The translations under genes were made by a program, and so were the position numbers. From the NCBI RefSeq assembly GCF_000281045.1, contig NW_008246068.1:858707-922706 (forward strand): a DNA stretch of 64,000 nucleotides. The letters run 5' to 3'. The notes under the pieces were generated by a model. That model was not told the origin of the DNA, did not search any database, and saw nothing but the letters and a program-made list of their open reading frames with translations. The stretch comes from Saprolegnia diclina VS20 (Eukaryota > Oomycota > Saprolegniomycetes > Saprolegniales > Saprolegniaceae). Of the stretch, positions 1-32,941 are shown piece by piece (the first letter of the stretch is position 1; each line of letters opens with the position of its first letter).

Positions 1-3000
1 CAAGAGGTAGAACGACCCGATGATTGCCGAGAGTGGCAGTGTCGCTAAAATCGCACCGATCGTTGGCGGCGGCGCAATCAGCGAAAGATAGCTCAAGTAG
101 TAGAGCTTGGGCGGGTCTCGAATGCGCGTCATGAGCCTACAAAGTATCGCAACATGACAGACTGTCTTGCCCATTTCAGACAGTGTACCGATTGATGATC
201 CACGCCATCGCACAGCCAACCCATGCGACGAGCCCCATGACGTTGAAGAGCGTGATGTACATGGACGGCTCGAACGCAAAGTTGATGAGGAGCTCGAGGT
301 ACCCAAGCGGGTGGTACTCGACGTGCAGTGCATAGTCGGTCCGCGTCGTGTCCACATCAAAGTTGTCGAAAATGAGCTTGACAAAAATGAGCCGCTTGAG
401 CTGGAGCGTCACTTGGTAGTATGCAATCTCGAGTGTCATTTTGCGTGGAAAGCACTGGATCGTGCAGCCGCCTTCGATCACGTCGGCCGCCGATCGGTCG
501 ATGAGGACAGGAACAAAGATATCGCTGTTGCCCGCCGCCAGCAGTGTCCCGTAGAGCGCGCTGCCCGTCGAGTACGCTTGGTACGTGACCGGCTCGTTGA
601 CCATTTCGAAAAGCGACGTGAGCGTGCTGGCTTCAAACCAGCGCGGGTTCACGGCGACCGAGCGCAAGTCTTCTTCGTATTCGCAGGCGACGTCGCGGTA
701 GCAGTAGTCGGCGATCGGGTCTTGCAGAATATCGACCGGCCCCACGACGACCACGTCGTCTTGGTTGAGCAGTGGCGGGAGGGTGCGGCGAGACCACGTT
801 GCCGGCTGCTCGGTGAGCGCGGGAAGCTGACAATGCTCGTCGCTCTCGAGCAAGTCGAAGATCGTCATGTACCGGCCATATCCACGGCAGTGCGAAAAGT
901 ATGGCAAGTACGGTAGCATAACCTAGACATCGCCTGAATCCAATACCGATGGTCGAGACGACGAACGTACGTTGGTCATGTCGTACGAAGAATTGTCGGA
1001 GGCGAGGCCCTGGAACGTCTCGCGGTACTTGGCGACCATATCGATGGTGGTCGCGAGCGTCGAGAAGGGCGAGCTCCAGTACGCGTCCGTGGTCACCCCC
1101 GGCACTGGCGTGTCGAGCAAGTTGAGCTGTGGACTCTTCTCGCTGACCACGTTGGTTTGGAGCACTCGACCGCGCTCGAGCTGGCTAAAGCGCGGCGGGA
1201 GGTTCATCGGGTACGGTACATTCAAGCCAATCGCGCGTCGATAGACGGCCAGGAATGCGTAATCCCGCGGCACGAGCTCCTCCTCGAACGAAATAATGGG
1301 CGAGAGCGGGCGGCTGTCGGCCACGATGCCAGCTGTGTTGTTGGCGCGACTTGGCGACCGAATCTCAACCGACGTGGAGTTCACAAACAGGTCGGCCGCC
1401 GACGCAAAGAGACCGTACGTGATGTGAATCTCGGGCTTGATGAGCATGTCTTCCAGCGCCAAAAGGGTCAGGTTGAGCACATCGTGCTGTTGAAACGCTG
1501 TCGACGTCAAGGACGATGGCAGAAGTAGCGGCTGACGACACGGTGACGTCTCGGTCGCTGCCCCCAACGGCAGCCGCACGCGCTTGGCATTGCACACGGC
1601 ATTGTTGCAGAGGCTCGGGGCGACGTAGATGGCAATTTTGAAGTGCTCGTCGTACAGCATGTCGACAGGAATGTGGCGCAGATCGAACGACAAGAGAATC
1701 TCCGAGAGCCCACGCAGCGCAAACCACCCGAGCTCCGGCGGCCACGGCCCTTCTTCCGACGCACGATACCCGCAGGGACTCGCGCTCGGTGGCGACGATG
1801 CGTACGTGAGATCCGCGCCGGTCGACGATATATGCACACCGTAGTTGGACACGTGCACTTTGGCGGCGACGGACGCCGCGCCGTTGAGCGCCATTGGCGG
1901 CGTGCGGCACTGCACACGGCTGCCGTTGACGTACGTGGCGGGGACTGACAAGAAGACGATCGAGTCGACGAGCCGGAACTCGCATGTGAGCTCATTCGTA
2001 TCGAGAAAGTTCCGCCCGATGACAGTGAGCAACTCGCCGCCAGTCGCCGAGAGCTGAGACGGGCACGCTCGCATGACGTCGATCGTACCGTTGTGCCACC
2101 CTAAGGCACTGGCCGACGCGTTCACCGGGAGCACTTTGGTGACAACTTCGACTTCGCCCGTCGGATTCGACGTCGCCCACGAGTTGAAGATCTTGGTCTC
2201 GCCTTGAAACGTATACGTAAACTGCGGGTAGTACGACTTGGCCGGGTCCTTGTCGCAGACGCTGATTTCCGTAATACTGCAGTCGATCTGTGCGTTCGAG
2301 CCCGGGAGCGACGTGGTGCGCGACGGGCACTGGCACTCTTTCGCAGTGCCGTCGGCCGTACCTAGAGGGCAAAATGCACCGACAGGGCACATGTACCGCG
2401 TCCGCTCCGTGTCTTTGGTGCCCCGGAGACACGTGCTGCCCGGCGGACACAGATTGTCAAATGCTGTGGCGAGCGTCGTCTCGGCACCGCAAAAGTACCC
2501 CGCGGGGCACTCGTGCATGTATTGCATATCGAGCGTCGTGGCTTCGCCGCACACGTACCCGGACGGACAAATGATGCTCTGCGTCAGGTTGTTCATGCCT
2601 AGTTGCATACATGCCATTAGACAACTTGTCCATCAATCGCGTTGTACCTTGGACGCCGCAGACGCGCCCGGCGGGGCACGGTTCACAGTACGAAATATCG
2701 GCGACGCCAGAGTTGGGCGACCACGTGCCGGCGGGGCACAGGCGGCACGTGATCGAGTCGGCGATCGACCGGTACGACCCTGGTGGGCAAATCTTTGGAA
2801 TGTAGTTCCCGTACCCCGGGCACGTGTACCCCGCGGGGCACACTTGGCAGTTGGTGCTCGATGCAAAGACGGCAAACGTGCCGGGAAAACACAGCATTGG
2901 CGCGATCGCACCGTCCTCCCCCGAGAAAGTACCCGGGGGGGTGATGACGGGAAACGTCGTCCCTGGTGGACAGTAGTGCCCTGGATAGCACAACGTCGCT

Positions 3001-6000
3001 TCCGTGGTGCCCTCGAGGCAGAACGCGCCTTCGGTGCACGTTTGACGCGACGTCGCCCCCGCTGGGACATTGGGCAGCCAATCGATCGTGAGCGGCGCTT
3101 CGATCCCCGCAAGGCAAAACGTGCCTGTCGCGCACGGGTACGGGCGGAGGGGCGAGAGCTCGGACGGGTCGAGCGTCCACGTGCCTTCGTTGCAGTAAAA
3201 GCCGGCGGGGCACAGCTGCACCGGGTGGGACAAGCCGACGGCCGAGCACACAAAGCCGGCCGGACACAGCGTTGGCGCGGTGTTGTTCCAGCCAGGACAA
3301 ATCGAGCCAATCGGACAGAGCACGCACGTGGGCTGGCCCGTCGCCGGTTGATATGTGCCTGGGTAACACGCTATCGGCTTGGTGTTGCCGACGCCCGGGC
3401 AGTACATGCCACAAGGGCAGAGCAGCGCGTCTGTCGGGTTGGGGCAGAAGTAGCCTGTCGGGCACGGCCCCGTGCCTTCGGGCGTAAAGCTGCCGCGCGG
3501 ACAGAAGAAGCCAGCATAGCAGGTCTGCGGTGTGCTAAAGTTGTTGGCCATTGGCGACAGTGTCGTCGCGCCCTTGAAACAGTACATGCCAAGGGGGCAC
3601 ACGTAGGGCTTTTCGGGCACAAGGACGCTGCTGCCGATGACGCAGTTGCGCACGAGACATCCCGGGTCCTCCAACACCGGTGGATGGTTCAGTCGCCGCG
3701 CGCCGGTTGCCGGGAGCACGCGCGCCACGATCGGCCACGTCATGGAGCTGTCGTTGAAGACAAGGAGGCCCGTCTCGTTGTTCCACAAATAGTTGTTGCT
3801 GGCCTCCCACTCGTGAACGTTCATCGTCTTGGTCCCACGACTGCAGTAGTGTCCTTGGTTGCACAATATTGTCGGCGTCGAGAGCGCTTGGCGGTCGCAA
3901 ATGTAGCCGGCAGGACACAGCACGGGGTGCGAGAGACCAAAATCCGGGCAGAAATAACCTACGGGGCACGGAAGGCAGGCAGTTTGGCCGGCGCGCGGCT
4001 GGAACGTGCCAGGCGTGCAAAGCGTAAAGTTCTGTGCATCCGCGCCGATGTACGTGCCATTGGGCGACGCAGAGACGTCGTGGCCCCAGCAGTACGCCCC
4101 GCGCGGACATGAACTGCGGTACTCAAAGGGCACGCCGCTAGTGGAGAAGGCAATACCGTCGACTGTCACTTCGATCGTCACAGTGGTGGCAGGCGCCACA
4201 AGGTTGCCGACACGGGACGGTGCCACGCAGAGCAGCAGCTCCGGTGAGAGATACGTGGCTTGAGCAAACCGCTCGCCAAAGCGGCACCCGAGCGTCGAGA
4301 TGTTTTGAAAATGTCGGCCCTGCACAAAGACCGGTGTTTGGCCTGGTAGAAGCGTAAACGTCGGTCGGACCCGGGCGACGCGAACATCCGGCACGAACGA
4401 AAATGCCACTGGCGAGGCAAACTCGATGCCATTGGTCGTCACACTGAGGGCGACGCGCCCAATGGGATGCGGCGGCAACAAACATTGCACAGTCGTCGAG
4501 TTGACGTAGATCGCCGGTACGAGTGTCGTATCCACTTGACAGCTGAGCTCGATCGTCGAGCGAAAGCTCGTGCCGTACACATGTACGAGCGTCGTATTGG
4601 CCAAAGACGGTGCGGACGCCGGCGCGACACCGACGAGCGTCACCGCTGCTGCGAACGTTACGGTCGTCGTCGGCGGGGATGGATCGAGACCGTTCAAGAT
4701 GCTAAGTTGCAGCGTCGCCTGTCCGACGGCTAGCGACGGCGGTACGGCGCACTGCAGCAGCGTACTCGAGTGCACGGTCGCCGGCACCACCACGAGCCGG
4801 TTCCATACACACGACACCGGGTAGGGTCGAAAGTGGTAGCCTCGCACCGTGACCGACCCCGTGCCAACCTGCGACACGATGGGTGGCCACGATGACGTCA
4901 CGAGTGGTGTCGGCGCGTATGTGAAGAAGCTGCCGTGGGACGTGAACGATGCATTGTTGTTGGACGTGTGGACGACGACGACGTCACGTCCGTTGCTCAG
5001 CGAGACAGTGGTCGGGTCGGGAGCGACGCAAGTCACTTCGGTTCGCGACACAAACGTGGCGGACACCACCGCGAGGCCAAACCGGCATACGAGCAGAGGC
5101 GACTGGCTAAAATGGTTGCCAAATACCCGCACCCGCGTGCCAACGTTGCCAAACTCGGGCGAGATCGCGCGCTGCACGGCGTCGTTGGCGACCATTACAT
5201 GTCGTGCCGATATGGAAGCGAGAATGCCGTCGTTCGACACCTCGACCAGCAGTTGCATCGGAACGTGCCGGGGAGATACGCACACAAGCGACGTCGGTGA
5301 CCGGTACGACGCCGGCACAACAACCGTGCCAAACATACACTGCAACGTCGGGATGTTTTGAAACAAAGACCCGATGACGGTGACCACGGTGCCGCCGCTG
5401 GACGACACGGTTGGTGGAAAGAGCGATGTAATCGTGGGTCGATCGGTGCGCACCGTCGACTCGACAAACGCGGGGACCGGCGGTGGTACCGGTATCGGTA
5501 CATACGTCACATTCCACGGTGTCGCCAGTGTCGCAAAATACGACTGCAGCGACACGACGTAGGTACCTGGCGACGGTTGCGGCGGGGTGACACAGCGCAG
5601 TCGCGTGGACGTAGCGTAGGCGGGCACAACAGCACTGCCGATGCGGCAATGCGACACCGACTCCAAGTGATTGCCATAGAGCGTCACGTCGCTGCCGCCG
5701 TCGACAAATGCCGTCACCACCGGCATGGCCGTCACCACTGGCGTCGGTAGAATCTCAAACGAAAACGGGTCCACAGAAGCCGGCGCAGATGCCGTTGACG
5801 AGACTGCGAACGCCAACGACGTCGGCGACGCCTGCGGACTTGCGCACACCATCGTCGAGGCCGTCACTTTGGAGGCTTGGACGGCGGTCGCGCCAAACCA
5901 GCACGTCGCGTTCGAAGAGACGCGGACGTTTTGCGTCGCCACGGTAACAACGGTACCACCGATGCTCCACGCTCGCCCCGGTGTCACCGACAGAATGCGC

Positions 6001-9000
6001 TCCAACGCCACGTAAGTGAAGGCAACGACGGCTTTTGGCGCTTGGTTGACCAGACCGACGGCGAAACGCACGGTGCGCGACGTATAGTTGTCGGTTGTTG
6101 CTGGCGCCACGCACATGGCAGCCGTTGGGGACACAAACGTGGCCAACACAGTGGTTGTGTCAAACGTGCATTCGAGTTGCATCGCCGGAAAGAAGCTGGC
6201 GCCTGAAATGCGCACCGTCGTCGACCCGGTGGTTACGCCCGTTGTCGGCGCCACGGACGCCACGTACACTGGTGCACGAAAGGTAAAGTTGCCGTGCCAC
6301 ACGACATCGAAGCCGTTGTTGGTGAGCCCGATAGCTACGGTGCCAGGCACATGCACCGGTGTCCGGCAGGTAGCAAACGAAGCGTTCTCGAATGCTGCGG
6401 GGACGCGGGATGCGTTAAAGACGCAAGCCAGCGCACTTGACGGGTAAAACTTGGCGCCACGGAATGCTACAATGGTACTGCCGCTGTTGTCCGCTTCACG
6501 CGGCTCCACAACTTGAAGTTGAAGCGGTGGCAGCGCTGTAAAGACACCAGAAAGCTGCGTCACCGGGGTGCCAAAATGATACACATCGACGCGCAGCGAC
6601 GTGGGCGACGAGACATGCGGGACCTGCGGCGAGACGCACGACGCCTCGGACGGCGAGACAAAGATGGCAGGTGTCGTCTGGCGCCACCCGCTGTCGTCGC
6701 TAAACACGCACTCTAGTGCCCTCGACTGATTGAAGCCCGTGCCGTGAAGACGCAGATGTCCACCGCCATCGCTCGAACCGAACGGCGGAACGATGGACCA
6801 CACTTCGGTCGGGGCCAGGTACGGTAGCGAGAGCACGTTGGACCGTCCACTGAGCGCGTCAACAAACAGCGTCGCGACACTTGCAGTGGCACGGGGCGGC
6901 ACGACGCACGTCACTGTCGTCGACGATAGAACCATGCCTGGGCCAGACGCTCGCCCGTCGTCAAAAATGCAGGTGACCGGCCCCTCGAAGGATGTACCGA
7001 CAATCGCTACGACATCACCACCGAGCGGACTGACCGCGGTGCGATTCGAAAGAGCACTCAGCACCGGTAACGCACGGTAGGCAAACACGACTGACGACGG
7101 AGACACCTCGAGGCCACCGTTGCTCAACGTGACGTCGACGGTACCGGCAGCGTGCGCCGGCGCCACGCACGAGACACATGACGCGTTGATGTACACGGCA
7201 GGCACCGTTGTTGCGTTGAATCGGCACGCCAGCGTCGTTGAAAAACCAATGTGGCGGCCAAGGACCGAAACGATGGTACCACCGGTGGTCGCGCCAGCCG
7301 ACGGCACGATCGTATCGAGAAGCGTCGCGTATGTGAATTCAAAGGTCAAAGTGGCTGGCAACGCCGTGAGGGCGTCCGATTCATCGAGGAGGCCAACTGG
7401 AACGACGCCCGTCGTGTGAGCAAGCGTGACGCACTGCAGCTCGGTTGGCGACACATACACGGCCGGCACCACAGCAGAGCCAAACGTGCACGCAAGTTGT
7501 TTGGCTTGGTGAAAGCCATGGCCCAAGAGGCGGACACGGGTGCCCCCAAGCGCCGATCCGGTGCGTGGTCGCAGCGATCGCACGTGATAGGCATCCAGCA
7601 CCTCGAACGTCACGCCGTTCGCCGAGTAGTCGACACCGTTGTTGAGGGACACTTCGACTTGCAATGCTCGCTGCAAACGCCCGTCGACGATCGTCAAAGG
7701 CACATCGGGTACAACACACTCGAGTCGCGTAGTCGAGCTCACGTGGGCGAGTACAAGTGCGCGTTTTCCGAAGCGACAGTAGACGTTACCGCGGTCGACA
7801 AACCCCGACCCCAGAACGACGATTCGGGACGCCACTTGACCGCGCGGTGGCTCGACGGCCACCACCGACGGCACCACGAGGTACTCGTAGCTCACGCTGG
7901 CCAGGACGTAGCCAGCGGCATTGCTTGAAAGTTCGACGGTGACGACACCGCGCGAATGCGGCGGCGCGATGCATGCCACCATTGTCGCGTTGATCTTGCG
8001 GGTGGGCACGATGACGCGATCGATGCGGCAGTGCGAAGCCTGGCCGACGTTGGCGCCTTGGAGGTATAGAGTCGTGCCACCCGAGATAGGACCGTTGTTT
8101 GGCGAGATCATCGTTGCGTTCAAGGGTGGATCCACCGGCAAAATAGTCGCCAGAACGAAGTCGAGGCCGTTGTTGGCGACCTCAAGAACGACGATCGACG
8201 TCGACGCCAGCGCCGGGACTGCACAGCGCGCATGGCTCTCCGACATGAAAAACGCCGGTGCCGTCGTCGCCTGGTTGATGCGGCAGACGATGGACGGACG
8301 CAAAAAGACGCCATGCACATCGACCAGCATCGCGACACCCGCGATACCGCGAGCCGGAAACGTCGAAAGCACTTGCATTGGGGGCACATAGGCGTAGCTC
8401 ATTGGGAACGACGCCAGTCGCACGCCATCGGCGCTTGTGTAGAGTGAGATCGTGACGGTCTCGGGCCAAGCCGCCGGCGGCGCGGCACACGACACGGTGT
8501 GGTGCGCTGCATCGAACGTCGCCGGCACCAACGCGTCACCGGTGCCGAGCTCAAACGCACATTGCAGGTGCCACGACGCGCGAAGCCCAGTGGCCGAGAG
8601 AACGACCGGCGTGTGTCCGCCAAGCGGTCCATTCGGCGGCGTAACATCTAGAATGCGGACGTCGTCGACGTACTCGATCGACATATTGAGCCAGTTGACG
8701 AGTGCACCGGAATAGACAATACCGAGAGATACATTTGTCGGCAAGGGCGATGGCGGCGCCGTGCATTCGACTTGATGTACCGATACAAAGCGTGCCGGCG
8801 TGGACTGCGTTGCACCAAACTGACACGCGAGATCCGGCGTCGCGAGAAATCGACGACCGTAGAGGCGCACGACAGCGCCACCGTTGAGAAGCGACACAGC
8901 CGGCTGCATGCCGACGCCTTCGGGTGGCAAGTAGACGGCAAGCACGAGTCGATTGTCCGTGTACGTCTGCCCGTGGAGCTCCAGCCAAATGTCGAGAACA

Positions 9001-12000
9001 CTTGCGACCGTCACGTGCGGCGTGAGGCAGTCGAACGCGCGGGGGGCCACTGTCCGCGCGGGGGCTTGCCACGTCCGGTTGGTCGCCGCTTGGTAAAAGA
9101 CGCAAGAGAGCTCGACGTCAAGCGCATCATAGTGTAAGTGCATCGTGATTGGGACACGTGCATTTGTTGGCACGTACGACGGCAGGACGGAGCGTAGCGT
9201 GTTGCCATCGATGACGTCCATGGACCACCCCGTCCAGATGTCGTGTTGGTCGTTGAGTACCAAGTCGACCGTGGCGACACCGGCGACCATCTGTGTCGGT
9301 ACAGAGCAGGTGATCGTCAGTGTCGTCGACGTCATCGCTACAACGAGCCCCTTGGAGGCAACCTCGCGGTCAAAGAGGCAGTCCATCGCTTGCTCTTGAA
9401 ACGTCGTCGGCACTGACGACGTCAGCGTGAGCGACACGGAGGCATTTGGGTGCATGGCAACCATCGATGGCCACAGCGCCGTGACCAAAGGCGCCTCGAG
9501 GTACTTGAACGTGAGCTGCGGGGCCGACACAAAGTTGGGCTGGAGCTCGGTCGTGATGACGATCGTTACCGTCGCCGGCGGTGCGCCTTGCGGGGGTAGA
9601 GTACACACAAGATAAGTCGCGTTCAGCACCATGGCAGGCAAAAACACTCGAGCGTCGAGCCAGCACCCAAGCGCGGGGTAGAACCCGAGACCCGACACCG
9701 ACACGATGGTCCCGCCCGTGGCCAAGCCTGCCGTCGGCGCGGCCGCTGCAACCGCAACGTCGCCGGCAACGTGCATCGTTCGACTGGATCGTGTCAGCGG
9801 AATGTACTCGGAACCGTTGGCGCTGAGTGAGAACGGTACGGCTGCCAGTAGCGCCGGGATCGGGCAGTGCACACGCACGGAAGAAACGTATGTGACCTTG
9901 GTCGCTTCTGCGCCAAAGACACAGACGCAATCAACACCTTGAAGCATCGGATCGCAGATACCGAGCCCGGCGCCGTGCACCGACGCCGTGAGCGCGGGTG
10001 CATTCATCGGGACAAACGCCGGCTCGACAAAGTCCACAAACACAGCTTGCAACACGGCCGCGATGTCCAGCATTAGGGCACTCGGCTCAAAGTCCACGCC
10101 ATTCACCGAGACAAAGAGGCGGGCAGTCGGCGTGGACGGCGTCGGTGCTCCAAGAACACAACCAAATGTTTGGGTGCCCGACAAGACGGCCAGGCATTGC
10201 ATATCCGGTGTCTTCAGCCAGAGACGCTGGGCGCTCGTAGGCGACGTCGTCACGACTACATGCCACTGCTCCGTAGCATCGAGGCTTTGCTGCACCGAGA
10301 GCAGCGTCGGCACTGCCAAGTACGCATACGTCAAGTTCGTCGCGAACGTCTGGTGGTTCACCACGAGCGCTACGGACACGACACCCGAGGTCGCCTGCGG
10401 TGGCGCCTTGCAGAGAACGTGGCGCGTCACGTGGTCGTAGCTGCCAGCGTGCCACTGTGATCCAAAAATGCATGTGATGTTGCGCGCTTGCGCCAGCCCA
10501 CGGGTCTGCACGCGGACAACGGTGCCACCCGCACTCGGTCCCTCGCTGGGGACCAACGACGGGAACGCGAGCGGTGGCAGAGTCGAAAACACCAGTTGCG
10601 GGCCAGGAATCACGTTGGCGCTGTCCCAGAGCACAGCGATTGGTGTTGAGCCCAGTGGCAGCACCGGAATACCACACGTGAGCTCAGAAGTCGATACAAG
10701 CGACGCAACTGTCGTGGTAGATACGCCGAATCGGCACTGGTACGACGTGATTGCTGAGCTGAAGTTGCCGTACAACGACAGCGTGCTGGAGCGATCGACG
10801 ATGGCAAGGGCTGTCGGGTGGATGGAAGATATTGTCATCGACGCAACATACTGAAAGTGCCATGGTACACTCGGTACCGGCTCGTCTCCCACCAATAACG
10901 TTACGTTGACCGTGCCAGAGCCCGGTGGCGCCGCGCAAGAGACGTTGTAGGCCGAGCTAATGGCGGGCACCAACGCGGTACCAACGCGGCAGCTCGTCAC
11001 AGATGTCAAATGCACGCCTTCCACGATGAGGTTCGCACCGCGCCAGCCAAATAGAGTGCGTGGGGCAGCAAGCGCCGGCGCCGGCGCCACCACGATGATC
11101 GTTTCGTAGTAAATGCGGTCGTGGCCGAGGACCCGCAGCGTGAGGTTGCCTGCGACCAGTGCCGGCGCCTGACATGCGAGGCGCTGGGGCGAGAGATGGA
11201 CGGCTGCGACACGATCAGTCCCGAAGATGCACTCCCAGCGCTGTGCAAAGTTGAGCGCTGCACCGTGCACTTGCGCCCACATCTGAAACGAGGCGACCCA
11301 GGCCAAGCTTGGCTGGACTGTGAACACCACCGGAGGCGTCGTGAACGTAAAAACGAGTGCAGTCTTGACAACTGCGGGGCCAAAGACAAGGGAGAGCGGC
11401 ACCATGGGCTGCACAGTTGTACGTGGTACCTGGCATAGCACGCGCTCTGGCGACACGACTATACCCGGAACGATGGCCGTGCCAAACATGCATTGCACCG
11501 AGATGCCGGCGGGAAAGCCGCGGCCACGGATGGCCACCGTGTAGTTGCCCCCGAGGGGTCCCGTCGCGGGCTCGAGCTGCCACTGCGTCGTGTTCCACTC
11601 TGGCAGCACTGTGATTGGCACCACATTAGAGTAGACAACCCCGTCAATGGCGACACCTAGATGAACCGTCGAGACGAATGGCAGCGGAGGCAACGCACAG
11701 AGGACACGGCGACTCGTGACGTTGGTGGCAGCTACGGTAGTGACGACCTTGTCGACCACTTGAATCACGCACATGAGCGGGACGGATTCGTTTGGAAAGG
11801 CCCAGCCGGAGACGACGACAGTACTTGGTGTCGACGATGCGATAACAACTGGCTCGACATGAACGATCGCGGGCTCTTGAATGTACTGTATAGAAAAGGG
11901 ACCATCGTGCGAGACGGGAACGTCGACGTCGAGGTACAATGCCGCCGGAAGGCTGCCCGAGGGCTGCGCAGGCGCCATGCAAAACACGCAGGACGCATTG

Positions 12001-15000
12001 GCTACTGAGACAGCAGCGGTGGCCGCACCAAAGAGACAGTGCATTCGAGGACTGTAGGGCAACGACGGCGCCCCGCAAAACGTGACCCGCGTCGACCCAT
12101 CCAAATTGGCAACCAATGGCGTCATCGAGATGCGCCGTGGGGCCGCCACCACATGAAGCTCGAAGACGGTATCGGCAAAGATGGGCACCACCGAGACGTT
12201 GTAAACAACCACCGAGACGTTGTAAACACCGGGTTGGACAATGAAGACGCTGCAGGCAATGCGATCTTGCGAGTCGAGAATCGCGGCCACGTACATCTCG
12301 ACGGGGCCTTGGAGGCGGCACTGCATTCGGGGTCCTCTCGGTCCTGCCAGCAGCTTCATTGTGGCCAATAAAGAGCCTTCAAACACAAGCGACGTTGTCT
12401 GGTTGGCTACTTGCAACGTTGGCGTCATGGTCGTCACGACGCCCGTGCTTGTCAGGACGGTGACGACAACGTCTGCGATAGGTTGGAACTGAAACCCATC
12501 TGTGGTGGACAAGGCGATCGCAAACGTCCCTGGTGTCGTCGGCACGGGGCATTCTGCGACGGAGTCCGACACCACGGCGCATGACAAGCTGGACGACGAC
12601 GCACCATACATCACAAGCAGCGTCGGACCGAGGTGGCTGCCCGATATATGGATCAAGGACCCCATCGGCACGACTTGCGGCGAGACACTTACCACCACGG
12701 GCGGTGCCACGACGGTCCAGGAGTGGTCCGCCAGAAGAGCTCCCGACGCCGTCTCGAGTGTCAATGAGACGTGACCTAGCGTCGAAAGCACGGGTACTTG
12801 ACACTGCGCCGTGTTCTCCGAGCTGGCAACAACGGGCATCGACATGGTGCGGTTGAAGTTGCAGAAGACGGGCGACGCAGTTGCGAGCCGCACGCCTCGC
12901 AGCAAGAGCACACTCCCAGTGTAATTGACGTACGACGCTGTCACGTTGGGGGACACGGAGAGAATCGAGGCTGGGAGCGATCGCGCTACGGTTTTGGTGT
13001 GCACTGGTCGGTCGTTGCACCATAACGTCAGCGTCACATTCGGCGATATCATCGTGGACGGTAAGACACATTGCACCGACGTCGCATCGACGCTGATGGC
13101 TGGTACGCGGTCGGCATCGTTGACGGCGCACAACAGTGGCACCGATGCACCGTACTGCCCATAGAACGTCACGAGAGGGTCGTCCACAGTGACCATCGAG
13201 TCGCTTACAACGATTCTCTGGCACGGATCGGTCATGAGCACCACTGTCGACGGCAACGGCGCGCCGTTGTACCACAAAGTCAAGGCGCTGGGCGCATCGA
13301 GACCGGCGCTCGGACAGCGCAGCACGCTCGGTCGGTCGTACGTCGAGGTTACCATCGTCGGCGTGGTTGCAGTTGACGAAGCAATGGCGCACTCATACGC
13401 ACGCACCGACGCATTGACATCCAAAGCGATTGTCCACCCGCTTGGTCCCGACGGCACCGCCTGTACTTGCGTAGGAAAGGCGAGGACCTCGAATGCAAGC
13501 AAGGTGGAGGCGCGTTCGTCGTCGTTCCAGCTCACACTGACTCGGACGCTGGCTTCGTGCAGGAGCGGCGGTGCCGTGCACTGCAGCGCCGAGCTGTTGA
13601 GCACGCGAGCACGGACGACTGTAGCGTCAAAGTGACAGCACCAGCTCGTCGCATCCACAAAGTTGGTGCCGCGCACGACAACGTCTTGGTACTGCGCCAC
13701 GAGACCAAAAGACGGTGCAATCGAATGCAGCTGCACACGTGCGAGGTACGTTAATGGTCGTGGAGCGCTTGACGAAGCAAAGCCATCGAAACTGACGTCG
13801 ACGAACACGACACCGGGCGCATGCGGTGGGGCCGCGCAGACAAAGGTTCCATCGGGTCGTCGATGACCCGACACGATCTCGCCATCGATGCGACACGACA
13901 GTTGTGGCGGCGCTGGGGTGGCTGTGATGCGCAGCAAGGTGCCGCCAGCTTCGCCAATCAAGTTTGGACCAACGTCAAATGATGCGATTGGGCGCAGCAC
14001 CGTGACACTGAAGCTTGCTATGCTTTCGAAGTTCTTGGCAAGCCACAGCTCGTGGGATCCCAGCAGCTGACCAAAGGATAAGTTGGAGCAGCCACCAGTG
14101 CTGTTGCTTAACACGACGAGCGGTACGTCGTTCGGGCATGTTAGCCCGTATGCTGATACATCCTTGTCGAACGTCAAGACCACCGACACTGGCGATACGG
14201 CCGACGACGACACAAAAGCCGGGTACGTCGCAAGGACCGAGACGGAGGGAAGGATCGTCAACACAGTAGGCGACGGAATGACCCGCCCTTCGTAGACAAG
14301 CGAGACCGCGACCGTTGTCGCCGTTGCAACGGCTGGGGCAACACACTGCAACGCGGATGGGTTGAGCACTAGCGCCGGCGAGAGCGCACCTTGAAAGCTA
14401 CAGGCGAGCGTCGACGCGCGCAACGCCGTCGGGAAATAACCCTCGAGACGCACGGTCGTTCGGTGCCCGACGACGCCGTCGCGAGGCGCGATACCGTGCA
14501 CCCGGGCATCCGGTGCGTACAAGAAGGACACGGCATTTGAAAACGTCACGCGGTTGCTCGTCAGCAGGATCGCAACGTTTGACGGACCAGAGTTCCATCG
14601 TACGCTGCACGACACGGCGGTCGCATTGAGCACCGTCCCGATGACGTACATGCCTTGGTAGAAGCACTCGACCGGGTCTTGTCGCCGAAACGGACCACCG
14701 AGAAGCGTGAGGACTTCGGTTGCTGTAAAGCCGACGGCCGGAACGACGGCACGCAGCGTCATCGGTTGTACTACCTCGAGGGGCACCGACGACGACGCAT
14801 CAACGCCATTCCATAGCACCCATAGGTCGTACGCGCCGGCGATCGGCACAGCGGGGAGGTGGCACACGAGTGTCGACACATTGATGTACGCAGCTGGTAT
14901 CGTTGATGGTGGCTGCGTCCCGAGACCGCACGCCACGCTTGAGGACTGGGCCACGGGGAAGGCGTCGCCCAGAATCAGTACGGAGGTCGACACGTTTGTT

Positions 15001-18000
15001 GTCACTGGACGCAACGGTTGACGGCTGGCGATGCGTGGGACGTCGTAGTACGTGTAGCGCCAGCCGTCTTGGACACGCTGGTCGCCCCACGTGATTGCAA
15101 GCGATACCGTCTGTGGCGCCGAGATAGCCGGTGCCAAACAGCTCAGAGTCATATCGTCCACGATCGTTGCAGAAGTCGTCAGCTCGCCAAACCGACATTT
15201 CCAAAAGCCAGCCGAGAGTGTTCGAAAGCCGGCGCCGCGAACGACGACGGGTGTTGACCCTCGCACGTCTCCACCGGTCGGGCTCGCAACGTCAACGCTT
15301 GGCGACGACGCGATGACAAAGCCGAGCTCATTGGCTGACAAGAGCGTGCCGTCGGCGCTCGTCAATGCAACACTGTACGTGTCAGGTACAAGCTGTGGCG
15401 GAATAGGGCAGTCGAGTGCCGTTGTCGAGTACGTCACGGCTGCCACGAGGGTGCTGCCGCCCGTGCTGGCTGCTTGAAACGCGCAGCTAAACGCTTGAAG
15501 CGAAAAGCCAAAGACGCGGACCATCGCCGTGGGCGGGAGCGGGTACAACGCGGTGGTCGGCGCCAAATGCGACAAGAGCATCGGCGGCGCAACGTCGAAC
15601 GCCAGCGGCAAACTCCAGTCGTGGGAGTTCCACGACAAGGCGAGCTCTAAACGACCGGGATGACTTTGCTGCTCAGAAAACGGACACGACACGGTCGTTG
15701 CGCCTTCGATGACACCGACAACCGTCCAGGCGACGGAATCTGCGTGGTACCGGCAGAGCACCGTGTCAAGTGGGCTCACCTCGGCCACTCGCACCCGAAT
15801 CGGACCTGGAAACGTACGGGGCACAACCACGGGCGACACGAGGTGTATCAAGATGGGCGGGTCCGTGTACGTGTAGTAGAGAGCTGCGCTCACGAGGACA
15901 CCGTTCAATGCCACGGCGACTGCCACCGTAGTGGGTGACGCAACCATGGGTGAGGTACACGCTAAATACGTGGCATTCTGCGACGTCGGGACAACCGTGC
16001 GATGGCCAAAGAGGCATGTGGCGGTAGGCGGGAATGCGCTGCCACGTAGCTCGATCGTCGTTCCGCCTTGCAGAGCGCCGTTGACGGGGGTGAGTTCGGA
16101 GAGCGTTGACGCCGGCAGAACGCTATACGTTATCGTGTTTGGGCCTGCGACACGTTCGCCGCTAAACCATAGCTGCAGTTCGAACTCGCCAAGCGACAGT
16201 TGCAACGGGACGGGACAGTCGACAAGGGTCGTCGACTGCCAGCGCCCCATCGACGAATAGCGCTCGCCAAAGTAGCAGACGTAGTCTCCGACGTCGACAA
16301 ACCCGGTACCCGATACGTGAAGCACGGAGGATGCACCGGTATTGACGCCGACGACGGGCGCAATGGCCGCCACGGATGGCGGCGGGACAAGCCAGTACAA
16401 GAGCGCGTTCGAGACGAGCACATCCGTTGCTATAGCAATCTTATGGCTCGTTGCAACTGCCGTCGTTGGCACAATGCACGTGCCTGTCGTGGCGTTGAGT
16501 ACTGTTAGCGGAAGCGAGAGGGTAGCATCCACGTCACACGTGTACACCATCGAGCGGTTGAAGGTCGAGTGCAGAGTGACAAGCCCCGCGCTTCCATACG
16601 GAGCAACACGTGGCTGCAGCGTCGCCAGCCTTAGTGTGGACGCAGCAATGTCGACTGGCGGCGAGAACTCGCGGCCGTTGTTCGAGACGGCGACGGTCGT
16701 GACCGACACGAGTGGTCGGGGGCAGACCACATGCGAGCGGTTCACCACCAAGCCAGGCACAAGGCGAGTCGCGTCAAAGAGACACGTTAGGTCGTCGCTT
16801 CCGAGATACGAGTCAAGCACGAGTACTAGGCCTGTGCCGCCCGTGGCGACCACTGGCGCGACAATGGTCGGCACCGCAGCGTACGTGTACGAGATGCTCG
16901 ACACGAGAGCGTCGACACCATTGAGACGAAGCGCAATCAAAACGGTAGCCGACCCTGCGTCCAGCATCGAGGGAGCGACGCAAGCAATGGTCGTCGGCGA
17001 CACCCACTGTGCTGGCACAACCGCGGATCCAAAGACGCACTGCAAAAGATGCGTGTCAATAAACCCGGTGCCGTAAAGCGTGACGAGAGTGCCGCCTCGA
17101 GGTACGCCGTTCGTCGGCACGATAGCAACTACATTGGGATCGATTACGTACCGAAACGCGACTGAGCTCGATACACCAGCGACACTGACGCTGGCAACGG
17201 TTGGTTGCGACGCCGGTGCGGGCGGCGCGACACACGAGACAACCGACTTGTTCCAGAAATGGCCCGGCACCTCGAGAACCTGGTAGCCAAAATCAAAAGT
17301 ACAGTTGCCAGGTGCCGTGGGCAGCGACGTGCCATGAAGAAAGAGTTGGGTGCCCCCAGCGACGCTACCGCTGAGAGGGACCGTTCGCACGATGGCACCC
17401 GGGACAGTCGTTGAAAACAAGCATGGCGTCGACACCACGGTCGAATCGTCGAGCAAGAGCGACAGACGCGCCGTGACACCCAATGGCAGACGCGGTGCAG
17501 TGCACACGAGGAGCGTCCCATTGGCTCGTGCGGCGGGCGATACGACCGAGATATTGGCCGCGTCAAACTGACACGCGGTTCGGAATGCAGATGCTTCCGC
17601 CAAGTGCAACTCGAGAGCAGAGCCTTCCACACCGGACGAAAGAGGGCAGCGCGCTAGCGTCGGTGGCACGGCGACGACAATCGGATGCGGCGCTTCAAAG
17701 CCCTCGTGGCCGTTGATCGTGATGCGCAGCGTCACACGTTGCGGTGGCGAGAGAGGCGGGAAGATGCAGAGGATGCTGGAGCTGTTGAGCCACTGTGTGA
17801 CAAGTGGTTGTGCCACCGCAGCATCCGAGATGGCCACGCACTGCAAGACCGACGCGTCTCGAAACCCAGTGCCCGAGACGACCACTGGCGTAGAGTGGTT
17901 GGTGGCGACTACGCGTGGCGAGATGTTTGCTACGATCGGCACCGGTACCAGTTCGAACCCGACGCTGTTGGTCGCCATATCATCGTTCTCACTCGACAGC

Positions 18001-21000
18001 CATTCTAGCGAGAGGGCGGCGACACCAGGCTTGGCAGTCAGCGGCGTCGAGCACAGAACGGCAGTCGTTCCGTTCATTATGCCTTGGGTACGGACATCAC
18101 CAAAGCGGCACGACACGTTCACAATTGATTCGGGAAAGCCAGTGCCGACCACCGACACGAGAGCTCCGCCACGGGTGGTTGCAAAGCTCGGGACGACGGC
18201 CGAAATGCGCGCCGCGGCCGCCACCGACACGACAAGGTTGGACGCCAGTAGCGACACACCGCCGTCCAAACTGATGGTGACAGACACATTCTGCAGCGAC
18301 GTCGACGTGTTGGGCGCCTGGCAGAGGACCCGCGACGGAGACTCAATGATCGCTGATGTGCGAAAGGCACCGATCCAGCACACTGCGGCACCCGGTGGTG
18401 CCATTCCCGCGCCCGTCATTGAAAACCAATGTCCAGCGGCGACGCGCGTCGCAGAGAGCTCGAGGAGGCGTGGGGCCGACCATGCAAACCCCGAGCTCCA
18501 CTCTTGGCCGTTCCAGCTCAGCAGGACGGATGTAATCGCTGTCAGCTGCCCAGCATCGAGAAGAGGACATGCCACCGTGCCCGCCGCGTGCCACGATCCG
18601 ACGACTTGCGTCGTGGCATTGTTGAAGCCGCAGAAGATACGGGAGGACGGTACGGGGTCCGGAACACTGCATTTGACAAACACGACGTCTTGGGACGCTT
18701 GCACGGCGGTCACGCGTGGCGGTGATACAACTGTGAACCCGCCCGGTGCGAGCACCGACTCGTTCGTCCTCGTGTCCAAGATGGCGAGTGACGAGTCCGT
18801 GCTCACGCCCGCCGATGGCCAACACGACATTTCGGATGCACTGAAGACAATTGCACGCGTCGCGCCCGTAGCAAAGACGCAGTCGTAAGCACCGTCGAGT
18901 TGAAAACCTGAGCCATAGACGCGGAGAAGCGTCGAGACGGACCCACACGATGGAGACACCTCGAGGACGATCAATGGTGCGACGATCGTATACTGCGTGG
19001 ACAAGACAATCACGCCGAGCGCTTGGACGACGACCGGGGTCGTTACGGGCGCGACGACTGTCGGTGGCAGCGTCGGCACCTCGCATTTCATAGTCGTGTC
19101 GTTGAACGCTGCGATTGGTCGCACGATGTCCCCCGATACAAACTGAAAGACGCAGGCATACACGCTCGCATTCCCAGGTGACGGACGTTGAAACAAGAGA
19201 CTGGCGCCCGGACGCCCGGACGATGGCGAAACGAGCGTGACCGTCGCATTGGTGATGTTCATAAATACCAATGGAAACGCGCCCAAGGTGACATTTTGCA
19301 GCATAAGAGACACCGACACCGTCCCAGTCGTTGGCCACGATGGCGCGACGCACGCGACATTAGTTGGGGACAAGGCCTCGACGCTCGTGGTGACGCCAGG
19401 CGCGTCCCCAAATCGACACGCAAGCTGGTTGGTTGGCGGAGGGATATCCACCACGTCGATCGTAAAAATGATACGACGACCACCCAATGTCGGCACAACG
19501 GTAGGAGCCATCGCCGTTGCCGTCCACCCGGCGCTGGAGTGAATCGCCAAAGTGTTGAGACTGTAGACGGCGCCGTTGAGACTCAACGCGATCCTTGCGA
19601 GTAGCGTCGTTCTGCGTGAAGCGATGTTGAGGACAGGAACAGTACACGTTACCGAGGTTGCATTGAGCACCGTTGTCGTCGCCGGAACGCCGTTGAAGAG
19701 GACGACGGTGCCGGGCGAGATGGTCGTTGCTTGCAGAACGACGTGTGCACCAGCCGTTCCAACAGCCGGCTGCAACGACGTGATCAACGACGGTGCCTGG
19801 TACGTAAAAAACGTCGGCGCCAGCGTCGCCTGCTGCCCTTGAACGAGCAACGTCACAGCCTGCGACATGACGGCGGCGACCGGCGGCGCCACGCACTCGA
19901 CGGTCGTCGCATTGGTGAGATGCGCAGCTACCACCATCGATCCAAAAAGGCACTGGAGAGACGTCAGCGGCATCAATGTCGACTCGAGCTGCAGCGTCAC
20001 CCGAGTCCCCGCAAGGCCCGTCGTCGGCGTCATGGTGCGAATGACGAGGGGCCGATACACGGCGCACGGGACGGACCACAAGGCTGGACCTTGCCCAAGC
20101 TGAATTTGGAGCGTGCTTGCCTGTGCGTCTGTCGATGTGTTGATCGGGACTGGGCATGAAAGCGTCGATGACGTCCGCAGCGTCGCCGTCGTGACACCGA
20201 TGCCCGAATAGTTGCAGAGAAGTGGCATGGTACTGTCAACAACGTCAAAGCCAAAGCCGGTGACCGTCATCACGGCGTCCGCCCGAGAAACAACCCCCGT
20301 TGGCGTCGCTTGCCAGGGCGTGTCGGTGCCGACGATGGCTACGCGATGTCCGTCCTGCGTTGCGTCAACAGTGTTGAAAGACAACTCGAGTCGCGCCTGC
20401 ACCGACGTCGTCCACGCCCCGGGAACGTTGCACCTCGTGAGATTGGCATGGATCCAAGTAGCGGGCACGCGGGCCGTGACACCCAAGTCGGTTGCCCAGA
20501 CACACTCAGCACCACTGGCCAAAAAGTATACCCCGATAACGTCGACACCTTGATTCCTTGCAGCAGCCACCAGGGCCGGCTGTAGGCTGAGAATGCGTGG
20601 TGTCTCTATACAGTGTTCATCAGCTTGCTGCCTTTAGCATCGTAGCGTCCACAGTAGAACGTACCGTACACCGTAAACGGTACCGAAACGCGGATAGTGT
20701 CGAGCTCGTCCAAGACGATAGCAACATGGACTGGGCCAGCTAAGTCGAAGAAGGGCGTGGGGCACGAGATACGGAGCACCGACGCCGTCAACGACGCGGA
20801 CGCTGGCACGACCCACGAAGTGTTGGCGCCAGAGAATGCACACCGCACCGGCACCACTGGTGGCGCCCCGATGAGCCGCAAGGTGACTTGAAGGTTGGTG
20901 TTGCCGCTCGCGGGCCCTCGCTGTGGCGTCATCGAGAGAAAGGACGCTACGACGAAGGTTCACTTATATGCAGCAGTAAAAATGCATACCTCGCGTGCGC

Positions 21001-24000
21001 GCCAAAGATAATGAAGTCGACAAGTCTTGGCCGTTGGAGGCGACGGCGACGGTCGTCGCATTTTCTGGCGCAGAGCACGCAATCACCGATGCGGTTTTAT
21101 AGGTCGCAGGGACAATATGGCGAGCATCAAAGTTGCACGTCCAGTCCACCGACGGCGGCAAGTTTACGCCGGCTACCAACACCATTGTGCCGTTGTTGTG
21201 CAGCGTGGCTTCGGTGGCGCTCCACGGTGCTAATTGCAATATTGGTGTTAGAAAATCGCAAGTGAAGTAAGCATACCGTCGTATGTAAAGCGGAGAAGGT
21301 TCGACCATTGATCATAGCCATTGGTCACAACAAAGAGTGTCTCGCCTGATGCCCCAGGTGGCGAAATGCACGATACGACTCCGCCGTCGACGCGCAATGG
21401 TACGCGGGCGGCAGGACCAAACTGACAATACCACGCCGATGCATCGCTCAAGCCGGTCGTCGCGACCACCACCCGGGTCCCACCCTCCGCCTGGCCGTGG
21501 GTGGGTGCAAGCGACGACACAAGAAGCGGTGCATCTACTCAGCAAGCGTCAGCGCCGGCGATAGGATGCACTCGCACGTACCGATGCGCGACGCATTGGC
21601 CATGCTTAGCTGCAAAAAGGTCACGTGTCGCACGCCAAACGCGGCGTCCGTGCTCGCTTCGACCGAGATGATCTCGGAGCCAAAGTAGAACACATCCCGA
21701 CGATAGACCAAGGACGCCATCGTTGCGCTGACCGACATCGACGTACCCGACACGCGCAACGCCCGTGCCGACGATGTGACGACGGTGGCACCGGGCGCCG
21801 CCTCGAGCTGCAGTTGGCCCCATTCCGAGAAGGCTTGGAGACGAAGGTATAGTAGAGTTGCCGTGTCTGCGTACGTGACGAGGTACCCTTGCAGTTGAGC
21901 CTGCAACTGGCTCACGTCAATGCTTGGGCGATCGTTGACGGCGGTGACAGTGATGGGCCAAGCCGCGGTGGCGAGAAGCCCCGACGCCACGTTTTCAACG
22001 ACAACGTCGAGGCTCTCGGCGTGCTGGAGCGAGTTGAAGTCGTCATCGGGCGTGTACACAAGTACTGCGAGTGCGCGGTTGACATCCTGGAGCGACCCTG
22101 TGAAGTGCATCATGGCGTCCTTTCGACCCGAACCTCTCGCAAATGACAAGTTGCTTGTCGAAGAAAGCGAGACGAGACCGCTGGCGACACGCAAGGCGAC
22201 CGCAATGGTTTGTGGTACAAGCCCGAGTACCGAGTACGAGACCTCGTCACCGACGATGCGCAGCCCAGTGATCGCACCCGTCGCACCTTCTGCGATGGCC
22301 GTTTGGCCCAGCGGCAGCGTAATCGTCGGCGCGACCGGCGTGTAGTGCATCGCTACGACCACGGTCGTGGGCGCTGGAAACGTCGGCTCGATCAAGTACA
22401 TGGTCTGGTCTTGGACCGCCATCGTAAGCGTTGCATTGCCAAACCAGTTGGTCGGCGGTGTGTACACTATATTCGAGAGCACGCGATTCACATCCAGCAG
22501 CGGACCCTTGAGCAGCGTTGTCGTTGCCGAGGGCGTCGATACCGTGACCGTCGACGGCGCGGGAGGCAGAGCAATCGTGCCATGGTCGACGCTACACGAA
22601 ACGACAATCGGGTAGTTGAACGACGTGTTGGTGTGGTCGACAACCGCGATCGCGTCCGGCGGCAGCCGTAGTGCTTGGTTCTGGTGCCCCAAAAGGACCG
22701 GTGCCGAGGCCACCACCGTCGGTGTGTTGATCCACGAGTCCATGTGCACGCGAAGCGAGAAGCTTTCGTGGCCTTCGGTGATCGCGTTCATGATCGTGAT
22801 GATGTCGCCAGGCTCGAGCCCGTCTTGGTACATCCATTGAAGCTTGACCGTGTGCGGACCCGGAAACAGCTGCAGCGCCAGCGACGCCTGCGCAATCTGG
22901 TTGCCACGGGCTGCCCCCGCGACCCGGGCCGCGCTGCTCGTGTACGGAATCGAGTCGACGAGGAGACGTGCGCTCACGGCGCCCGCGTCAAACTGCGAGA
23001 ACGAGTTGAAATACGGGTTGTTGAGCATCTGGATTGGAAGCAAGTACGTGAGGAGGACGGTCGTGACGGCCCCCACAACGTTGAACGGGACGGCCGACCC
23101 GACGTCGAACCACTTTGTGCGCGGTACCGACAGCACGGTCGTGTCGACTTGGTAGGATTCGATCGTCGTCGGCGCTTGCGCAATGACCGCGAGGAGCCGC
23201 CCCATGAGAAAGCCGTCGCCGGTCGTCGGAAGCGACCGCCAAGACCGCCCGGACGGTGACTGGAGGCGCAAAAGCAGCTGCACCGAGTACTCGCCGGCAG
23301 GTAGCGTGAGTGCGACATCGGAGAGGAGCGCGTTGGGTTGGGTAAACTTGGCTTGGGTCGAATACGTAGCGCGCGTTGCGTCGTTCAGTACGTTGTTGAT
23401 CGACAAGATCGTGTCGACGCGATCGATGTCCGACCCGACTACATACGTCACTAGACTCAAACCTAGATCTTGGATTCAGCATGGTACCGCCGGTGAGGGG
23501 CATCGCATCCGGTCGCAGCGGCAGATTGTAGAGAAAGCGTAGTGGCGTCGGCGTCGGCAGCGACACTGAGAGAGACATGCCCGGGACGCTGACATATGCT
23601 GCAGTCGGCTCCATTGCTATCGAATACAGCGGCTGCGTATACCACACGTACGAGTGCTGCGCCGCCGCAATGAGCGAGCACGCGCCCGAGAAGCCCGTGT
23701 CGACCGTCGGGTCGATGCGCCATGAGGTCACAAAGGTGCCGGTCTTCTTCCATTGCAGCTCGAGTGTATGGTTGCCGGCGGCGAGCGAAACGACGAGGTA
23801 GCCTCCAACGAGCGATGACGCGCCTTGGTAATATCCCGACGATGCGCCCGACGCTCGCATCGGCGCCCCGTCGACAAGGACGCGGAACGAGACGAGGTCG
23901 TCGGCGCCGGGCGGGCGGCTCTTGTCGATGATGGCGACGGGCGGCTGCACTGAATCCGGGTACACGGTCGCCGAGTATGTAACAAGCAGCGTCATGGGCA

Positions 24001-24190
24001 GCGCGAGAAAAGCCGGGATGCTCGCGCCGGGCACGTCGACCCAGCGCCCGGGCGTCTCGAGCGTCGTCGTCGCCGTCGTCGTCGCACTCCACATCGAGTG
24101 CAGAAGGACGTCCGGGACCGTCGCCTCAATGAGCGCTACGAGAAGGAGAACGAGGAGCGCGCTGTAGGAGGCGCCATGGTACGCGTCCAT
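1..24190 (-). CDS. giant IPT/TIG-repeat, GCC2/GCC3 membrane glycoprotein (partial, C-terminus outside window)
   Basis: One minus-strand gene reassembled from collinear open frames. Proposed exons: 24190-23488, 23450-21582, 21534-21277, 21229-20990, 20946-20665, 20605-2648, 2598-971, 922-189 and 136-1 (continues). Each junction restores frame with GT...AG introns of 37-59 nt. About 7,936 codons lie in the window. Order: hydrophobic signal peptide (about residues 1-25); three related beta-rich domains; cadherin-like segments (an AVNDRP motif is visible); three IPT modules in exons 3-5; about 62 IPT modules in exon 6; a cysteine-rich CPAG/CPxGxxC region (about 6610-7210); one more IPT; then a less familiar extracellular stretch ending in at least two hydrophobic helices. 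IPT modules are immunoglobulin-like folds of large surface receptors such as fibrocystin-like proteins. I infer a very long extracellular rod anchored by a C-terminal membrane domain. The function is unknown. Confidence 0.85.
2276..4113 (-). other. GCC2/GCC3-type cysteine-rich domain of the giant protein
   Basis: This segment encodes a run of CPxGYxC, CxPGTF and LCPAG motifs spaced a few tens of residues apart, as in GCC2/GCC3 (ephrin-receptor-like, TNFR-like) cysteine-rich domains. It crosses the 49-nt intron 2647-2599, whose removal joins CGVQG to MNNLTQS in frame and continues the cysteine pattern on both sides. It separates the IPT rod from a single further IPT and the membrane-proximal part, a layout seen in large protist surface proteins. 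Confidence 0.8.
4120..21534 (-). repeat. array of about 65 IPT/TIG modules inside the giant gene
   Basis: Modules recur about every 88 residues. Each follows a P..G...GGT.V...G..F pattern, then CxFG/CxFD, then about 20 residues on C-x-A-P or C-x-V-P. I counted by eye 62 modules in the single exon 20605-2648, plus one in each of exons 3, 4 and 5. Most keep both cysteines, which in this fold would form a disulfide; a few are degenerate, for example near 14150 and 13400. Modules differ clearly in sequence, so the array is old and not a recent tandem satellite. An exact 21-nt tandem duplication sits inside one module at 12187-12228. Confidence 0.85.
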
Positions 24191-28900: not shown

Positions 28901-29528
28901 TGCGCGCTATGACGCCGACGATGTCGGCTTGACGTTTGCGGACGTCGTCGAAGTGCTGCATGCCGAGGTGCCCAAGATATTTGAGCGCAACGGCCGCACT
29001 GTGGTCACCGAGCACGGCGACTACGTTAGCGCCAAGGTGGGGTGGACCGTGAGCGAGGTCGAATACATCCGGTTCCACGGTGCTCCCGACGACCGGTCGA
29101 CCCCGACGCAAACCGCCGTCATTGACGCCGGCGCCGACGTGCACACGCGGCTACCAAACGGCAGTTACAAGCACCGCGTCTCGGTCTACAAGTACGATGA
29201 CAGAATGTAAAGCTCACGACGCTAACGATGAGGATTTAGGGCCAACGGGCAGCTCTCGGCGGCACCCAAAGAGCTCCAATCGGCCATTTGCCTCGGGGAG
29301 CCTCTGCACCACGAGTGGAGCGCACGGACCATGACCGTCCCTCGGCTCGAGCGCGGCGACTACGTTGCTCTGCACGACACGGGGGCCAACATGACGACGA
29401 TGGGCCACGGCGCCAACGGGCAGCCAGCGCCGCCCGTGTACGGCTACCGCCGCCATGACGACGGCGTCCACGTTGTCCTGCTCAAGGCAGCCGAAACCCC
29501 CGAACAAGTCATGCAGCTCTGGGGCTAA
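25961..29528 (+). CDS. fusion of a fold-type I PLP enzyme and a decarboxylase-like (fold-type III) barrel
   Basis: Three exons (25961-26077, 26124-29191, 29240-29528; introns 46 and 48 nt, the second with a CTAAC branch site) give 1,157 residues. Residues 1 to about 220 are a helical region I do not recognise. About 220-650 is an aspartate-aminotransferase-fold PLP domain: VVIDACQMR supplies the pyridine-binding Asp (about 424), and ITGSKFFAGVPFCGG holds the probable PLP lysine (about 451). From about 740 the chain resembles ornithine/diaminopimelate decarboxylases: CASIVEVQHAL, KIAFTSPVKTRRELAYA, VNADSFEELEII, and near the end GDYVALHDTGA and GQPAPPVY. The canonical YAVKAN lysine site reads FHVSSCP, so the PLP lysine is missing and the barrel is probably not a normal PLP decarboxylase. 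The substrate is unknown. Without the last exon the barrel's beta domain would be lost. Confidence 0.8.
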
Positions 29529-32573: not shown

Positions 32574-32941
32574 GGTGTTGTTGCTTGTCGAACCAGGATC
32601 TGGGAGTCGGTAGCGCAGGCAAATGCCATTGGTCAAAACAAGTAAGATGCTCGATTTGGATTGGCTGTTTTTTAGAAGGATGTTGAACCAGATCCCTCGA
32701 GGCAACTGCACATTGCAAGCTTGCGACGACACATACCGAGGGATGCTGGTACAATGCTTGAGGTATGCTTAAATCGGCAGGTAGCTCTACCAGCTACCCA
32801 GTTCTTGCATCCAAGCGTTTGTGCAAGGTCCAGGGATGTTGACAGCAGGCGACGTTTGATTGGCTTAAAAGAAACGAATCCCAACGCGCTATTGATTGAA
32901 TTGTCGCCCAATGGCATCGAGCCGAGCTGCTGAATTCGAAA
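32574..32941. promoter_or_regulatory. divergent promoter region, Kazal gene and DOT1-like gene
   Basis: The region between two outward-facing genes has an ATTGG box near each start: 32660-32664 (about 87 bp from the Kazal ATG) and 32859-32863 (about 80 bp from the DOT1-like ATG). On the minus strand CCAATGGCATTTGCC (near 32620-32635) resembles the CAATTTGCC core element. Function is inferred from position only. Confidence 0.4.

Follow-up and report, generated by a model that had tools for sequence, protein, structure and literature searches.

A giant predicted surface protein of the oomycete Saprolegnia diclina with an IPT stalk, a GCC stem and C-terminal membrane helices

Nonagonal cadherins of stramenopiles, oomycetes among them, combine a long modular ectodomain with nine membrane passes. 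The paper on these proteins is cited in PMC7409359 and PMC8164589. Among IPT-bearing proteins, animal PKHD1L1 is described in the text of PMC11043200 as a chain of 4,243 aa with one membrane span, a tail of 8 residues, a TMEM2-like region and IPT domains numbered up to IPT14. Tgr (Tiger) proteins of Dictyostelium mediate cell-cell adhesion (PMC3188802, PMC4404348) and are presented in PMC4404348 as single-pass proteins with a short tail; according to the title of a reference cited there, TgrC1 binds TgrB1 via mutual IPT/TIG domains. The extracellular proteins of Phytophthora mastigonemes have, as given in the text of PMC12223298, EGF-like domains and no membrane span, with PnMas1 amounting to 64 kDa. 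Closer to the organism considered here, the IPT family PF01833 is listed as differential between the Plasmopara and Phytophthora secretomes, the direction not being recoverable from the text (PMC7217449), and IPT and Fibrocystin-L entries were enriched in the stationary phase of a marine stramenopile (PMC7852580). Among the literature titles listed, we found none on a giant oomycete IPT receptor.

The window analysed here is a stretch of 64,000 nucleotides (C1:858707-922706, with C1 denoting contig NW_008246068.1) of the Saprolegnia diclina VS20 genome (54.15 Mb, 169 contigs). On its minus strand, one frame extends over 6,058 codons from stop to stop and is accompanied by several shorter frames. 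With the codon use of the two longest for training, a splice model joined these frames from an ATG at window position 24190 into gene A (C1:856099-882896, minus strand), which overruns the left window edge (C1:858707) by 2.6 kb up to its stop codon. According to the final model, with its splicing predicted, the gene has 11 exons, 10 introns and 8,746 codons, corresponding to a protein of 928 kDa. Its parts are the following, with positions given in window coordinates:

Exon 1, 23488..24190, minus strand: ATG, signal-like segment, the whole of repeat R1 and the beginning of R2.
Exon 2, 21582..23438, minus strand: remainder of R2, R3 and a cadherin-like/tandem-95-like stretch.
Exon 3, 21277..21534, minus strand: a single IPT module.
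Exon 4, 20990..21229, minus strand: a single IPT module.
Exon 5, 20665..20946, minus strand: a single IPT module.
Exon 6, 2687..20605, minus strand: 17,919 nt without a stop, with 58 detected and 4 degenerate IPT modules, then the start of the GCC stem.
Exon 7, 971..2598, minus strand: end of the stem and a membrane-proximal IPT module (residues 7255-7356).
Exon 8, 204..922, minus strand: extracellular part without a Pfam match; the first predicted membrane helix begins here (residues 7852-7870).
Exon 9, first part, 1..136, minus strand: the exon extends to C1:857393.
Exons 10 and 11, beyond the window and ending at C1:856099, minus strand: together with the outlying part of exon 9, these encode the further predicted membrane passes and the tail.
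Tandem IPT array, 4107..21534, minus strand: residues 851-6613, exons 3-6.
Cysteine-rich GCC (PF07699-type) stem, 2228..4028, minus strand: residues ~6640-7210, spanning intron 6.

The introns of gene A measure 43-88 nt each and all 10 end in TAG; the donors are GTAYG in seven cases and GTACC in one, and the other two are weaker (GTGAAC at window 2599-2686 and GTGGAT at window 137-203). Since the splice model rewards consensus sites, this consensus is partly built in. The eight short introns that the earlier note on this DNA had placed in the window were all recovered by the independent splice model and kept in the final one, and the leftward extension of the contig that it had proposed led to the stop codon at C1:856099, lengthening the protein from the more than 7,900 residues first estimated to 8,746. 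One stretch of 132 nt, read as an intron at first, was dropped as such because it is open in frame and codes for a lysine-rich loop at a place where paralogue B, located 416 kb away on the opposite strand (C1:402065-439945), has a basic loop as well. As B continues through the tail, the end of gene A was extended past a first, too-early stop.

That the frames form one gene spliced from 11 exons is a prediction from the DNA. Introns 2-5 do not interrupt the run of IPT modules, of which exons 3, 4 and 5 encode one each. Of the N-terminal repeats, R1 aligns with R2 and with R3 at scores above those of all 1000 shuffles (there is no match between R2 and R3, whose score is reached by 473 of 1000 shuffles), and R2 is split by intron 1 such that both halves match the unsplit R1, with neither score reached in any of 1000 shuffles. 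Alignments of A with B span the exon 6/7 and 8/9 junctions of A, and the two proteins have their parts in the same order from the signal-like segment through the tail. Two or more separate genes might instead have been joined wrongly by the model, an alternative that can draw on the two weaker donors, on joins predicted from sequence and on the first splice model having taken a coding stretch for an intron and ended too early. It would leave the modules and R2 carrying on over the junctions, the bridging A/B alignments and the matching order of parts in B to be accounted for, and we consider it very unlikely. The single minus-strand gene that had been proposed from seven frames is thus retained, with module and R2 continuity as well as the part order of B speaking for the predicted splicing.

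The IPT/TIG domain of A lies above the Pfam cut-off: the two halves of exon 6 score 312.8 and 518 bits against TIG and exon 7 scores 29.1 bits, and the GCC-type cysteine-rich region, likewise anticipated in the earlier note together with the HMM search as its check, gave a PF07699 match of 32.4 bits. A profile built from 35 TIG segments of the two paralogues and iterated on both proteins (domain E 0.1) found A to have 62 modules and B 65, and produced no match in four control sequences (two shuffled, two reversed). Four module-sized gaps in the array of A score weakly, at 10-18 bits each. Counting these as degenerate modules, A has 66 IPT modules, 62 of them (58 detected and 4 degenerate) in exon 6, in agreement with the approximately 66 modules, and about 62 in a single intron-free exon of 18 kb, originally counted. 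The array is old and diverse rather than the result of recent expansion or assembly stutter, since the 127 detected modules of A and B share a mean pairwise identity of only 22% (maximum 44%), the best partner is the neighbouring module in one of 127 cases, and among the 17,919 nt of exon 6 just 4 positions belong to repeated 20-mers. Two cysteine columns are kept, in 123 and 125 of the 127 modules. A structure model of three IPT modules adopts, with confidence (pLDDT 91.7), the plexin/EBF-type IPT fold, with plexin A1 IPT3-6 as the closest solved structures; matches of this model to cyclodextrin glycosyltransferase and NFAT structures were set aside as having only the fold in common.

At the N-terminus, hydropathy reveals a hydrophobic, signal-like segment at residues 3-31, in line with the signal peptide previously suggested and with predicted secretion. 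The cadherin-like/tandem-95-like stretch encoded by exon 2 scored 27.9 bits, below the cut-off of 90. The structure model of the N-terminal repeat is poor (pLDDT 53.6) and its top Foldseek match is a TNF-like lectin at E 0.002, for which reasons we give the repeat no fold name; with such a model, the nature of the head of A is a guess.

Paralogue B is modelled as 10 exons, one of them 25,390 nt in length, encoding a predicted protein of 12,459 aa (1,300 kDa), its start codon being assigned with less certainty. The protein begins with a signal-like segment and has two LamG_3 stretches at the tip (71.8 bits), 65 IPT modules, a GCC match (27.5 bits) and a multi-pass end. Identity between A and B amounts to 33% over stalk end plus stem and to 26% over the membrane module (HSPs of 33%, 34% and 26%), and the multi-pass module with the tail is kept at 26-30%. 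Together the two proteins account for 70 of at least 72 TIG-profile matches in the genome, among the matches listed; the two others listed fall in a Kelch-IPT-filamin dynein heavy chain and in a Kelch-IPT frame. The former, a frame with Kelch, IPT, filamin and dynein heavy chain N-terminal domains on contig C7 (locus L015 5938-8994), may be taken as a sign of a flagellate organism. Between its IPT blocks, B also has 31 copies of a repeat of ~100 residues without a Pfam name. Of 40 matches listed for this repeat, 29 lie outside C1; it recurs in other large open frames, on contigs C4 (716655-736588, minus strand), C86, C19, C14, C18, C62 and C7, and one of these frames, on C4, measures 8,849 codons. 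Several giant proteins of modular build are therefore encoded in this oomycete.

Other features of window and genome were recorded alongside. Pfam domains were scanned in 10 of the 21 frames listed for the window. Residues 724-967 of a plus-strand frame of 1,025 aa adjoining gene A (window 26133-29207) form a pyridoxal-dependent decarboxylase domain; open frames at 31692-32732 (minus strand) and 44473-45456 (plus strand) have five and four Kazal-type protease inhibitor domains, respectively, and frames with 5'-nucleotidase, ankyrin and ABC-transporter domains are found at 37885-39513, 54755-56827, 57680-59740 and 59800-61449. An elicitin profile gave 19 matches in the genome and none in 14 control genomes, as fits an oomycete; two elicitin-profile matches, at C4:767012-767551 (minus strand), lie within one open frame of 2,450 codons. 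The polycystin channel profile has 16 matches in the genome, on contigs C8, C21, C25, C36, C18, C66, C10, C63 and C88, several of them clustered on C63.

The C-terminal membrane helices expected for A are indeed predicted, although only the first lies in the window and the remainder, with the stop codon, outside. Strong hydropathy peaks amount to eight passes in A and nine in B, and to as many as 12 in each if weak peaks are included. We read the anchor of A as nine predicted passes with the N-terminus outside, the count being soft, at positions 7852, 7897, 7963, 8020, 8095, 8218, 8257, 8335 and 8361. In this topology, the loop after pass 5 is basic (24 K+R versus 21 D+E in A, 14 versus 11 in B) and fits its inside placement, as does the loop after pass 1; the loop between passes 3 and 4 is acidic in both proteins though placed inside, a poorer fit. 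The tail of A exceeds 300 residues and shares with that of B a WLAKAR motif and two CxxC pairs some 50-65 residues apart, which might bind zinc. Searches beyond the A/B pair gave no relative: Pfam at E 1 returned no family for the C-terminal 1,341 residues of A (a 44-residue loop left out), PDB sequences at E 1 no match to the membrane module, and NCBIfam at E 0.01 none to the last exon of B. In the genome, the membrane exon of B retrieved itself and three stretches of A only, and a profile of the A/B C-terminus found no match at E 1 in 946 frames taken from nine regions with GCC or IPT hits among the matches listed, and nothing better than E 0.05 in a 10-kb stretch near the end of the giant frame on C4. 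Viral contigs gave no pattern match with the last exon of B; with the A/B membrane alignment, 46 viral and 43 prokaryote contig pattern matches arose, none of which was confirmed. One could imagine a mechanosensory, channel-like protein, in which the nine-pass module forms or gates a pore, with the stalk serving as its tether. A multi-pass module behind a very long tether would suit this idea, and the 16 polycystin channel matches could represent partners; yet the membrane part lacks a Pfam family at E 1, channel profile included, and none of those matches is on contig C1, making such a role quite unlikely in our estimation.

The sequence supports A being a giant surface protein of this oomycete that combines an IPT stalk, a GCC stem and C-terminal membrane helices, and adhesion or sensing is still the best interpretation of what it may do. 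More specifically, we see about an even chance that A is a giant surface receptor, composed of the N-terminal repeat head, ~66 IPT modules, GCC stem, nine-pass module and tail, which serves long-reach contact or adhesion, likely on the zoospore or young cyst. The extended stalk, ~0.26 µm in length at an assumed 4 nm per IPT module, would carry the head clear of the cell coat; when the head binds or is pulled, this would be passed on to the membrane module, and the tail with its paired CxxC motifs might signal or anchor inside the cell. As a stalk of such length suits a surface without a wall, the wall-less, flagellate zoospore or the young cyst that it forms would be the likeliest site. An adhesive role for IPT domains has its precedent in the binding of TgrC1 to TgrB1, and the dynein heavy chain frame on C7 fits a life cycle with flagellate cells. 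A and B may then be two versions of one design, with different heads (two LamG-type domains in B) and different stalk lengths.

Many copies of A side by side could also form a thick fibrous layer without a specific ligand, i.e., a structural coat as proposed for PKHD1L1 on stereocilia. Length, IPT stalk and the 96 N-glycosylation sequons in the predicted ectodomain of A (95 with a stricter rule) would be in line with such a coat, of which PKHD1L1 is thought to form the greater part on stereocilia (PMC11043200). For that purpose an anchor would suffice, yet A and B have conserved a large multi-pass module and tail, and B displays LamG-type domains at its tip; we therefore hold a mere coat function to be unlikely. 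Oomycete zoospores bear mastigonemes, and the genome belongs to a flagellate organism, so that A might be part of these flagellar hairs, as the earlier note had also contemplated. Known Phytophthora mastigoneme proteins, at least as described in PMC12223298, are extracellular proteins of zoospores, as A would be, but differ from it by their EGF-like domains and missing membrane span: no EGF family was found in the scanned parts of A, and membrane passes are predicted. We regard the mastigoneme reading as highly improbable.

Returning to A as a contact or adhesion receptor, a bolder version, which we put forward as doubtful, would have A and B (0.9 and 1.3 MDa) represent a new oomycete receptor class with IPT arrays among the longest known, in which quarter-micrometre tethers on a new nine-pass signalling module allow wall-less spores to sense contact at a distance set by module number. 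If the receptor reading is true, a protist would possess two giant IPT receptors sharing a so far unnamed multi-pass module, and surface contact and recognition by oomycete spores would have a defined candidate; for this step, a study of P. parasitica aggregation assumed mechanisms that were still uncharacterised (PMC7409359). Gene prediction easily fragments genes of such size and repeat content, and relatives may thus go unnoticed in other genomes.

Among known systems, PKHD1L1 and fibrocystin resemble A in their very long ectodomain, signal peptide and IPT array. A differs from PKHD1L1 by its 66 IPT modules (versus the numbering up to IPT14 in the animal protein), several predicted passes, a long tail and the absence of a G8 match: no G8 was found in the N-terminal 860 residues (E 1), exons 6-8 (E 0.05) and C-terminal 1,341 residues (E 1) of A or in the scanned parts of B, and the genome's single G8 match lies on contig C14. 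The fibrocystin-like tie drawn earlier hence stands at the level of the IPT domain, but with several predicted passes instead of one and no G8 match, A is not a fibrocystin. Plexins and MET provide the nearest solved structures to the IPT stalk; the Sema and RasGAP families that mark plexins were absent from the same three scanned parts of A at the same thresholds. Of the polycystin-1/PKD hallmarks (PLAT/GPS, PKD_channel), Pfam at E 1 likewise found none in the C-terminal part. TgrB1 and TgrC1 of Dictyostelium are, like A, IPT-bearing surface proteins of a protist; A is far larger, with several predicted passes and a long tail. Cadherin PF00028 had no match when the genome was searched in six frames. 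In architecture, nonagonal cadherins as generally described nevertheless come closest to A, the one built from cadherin and the other from IPT modules.
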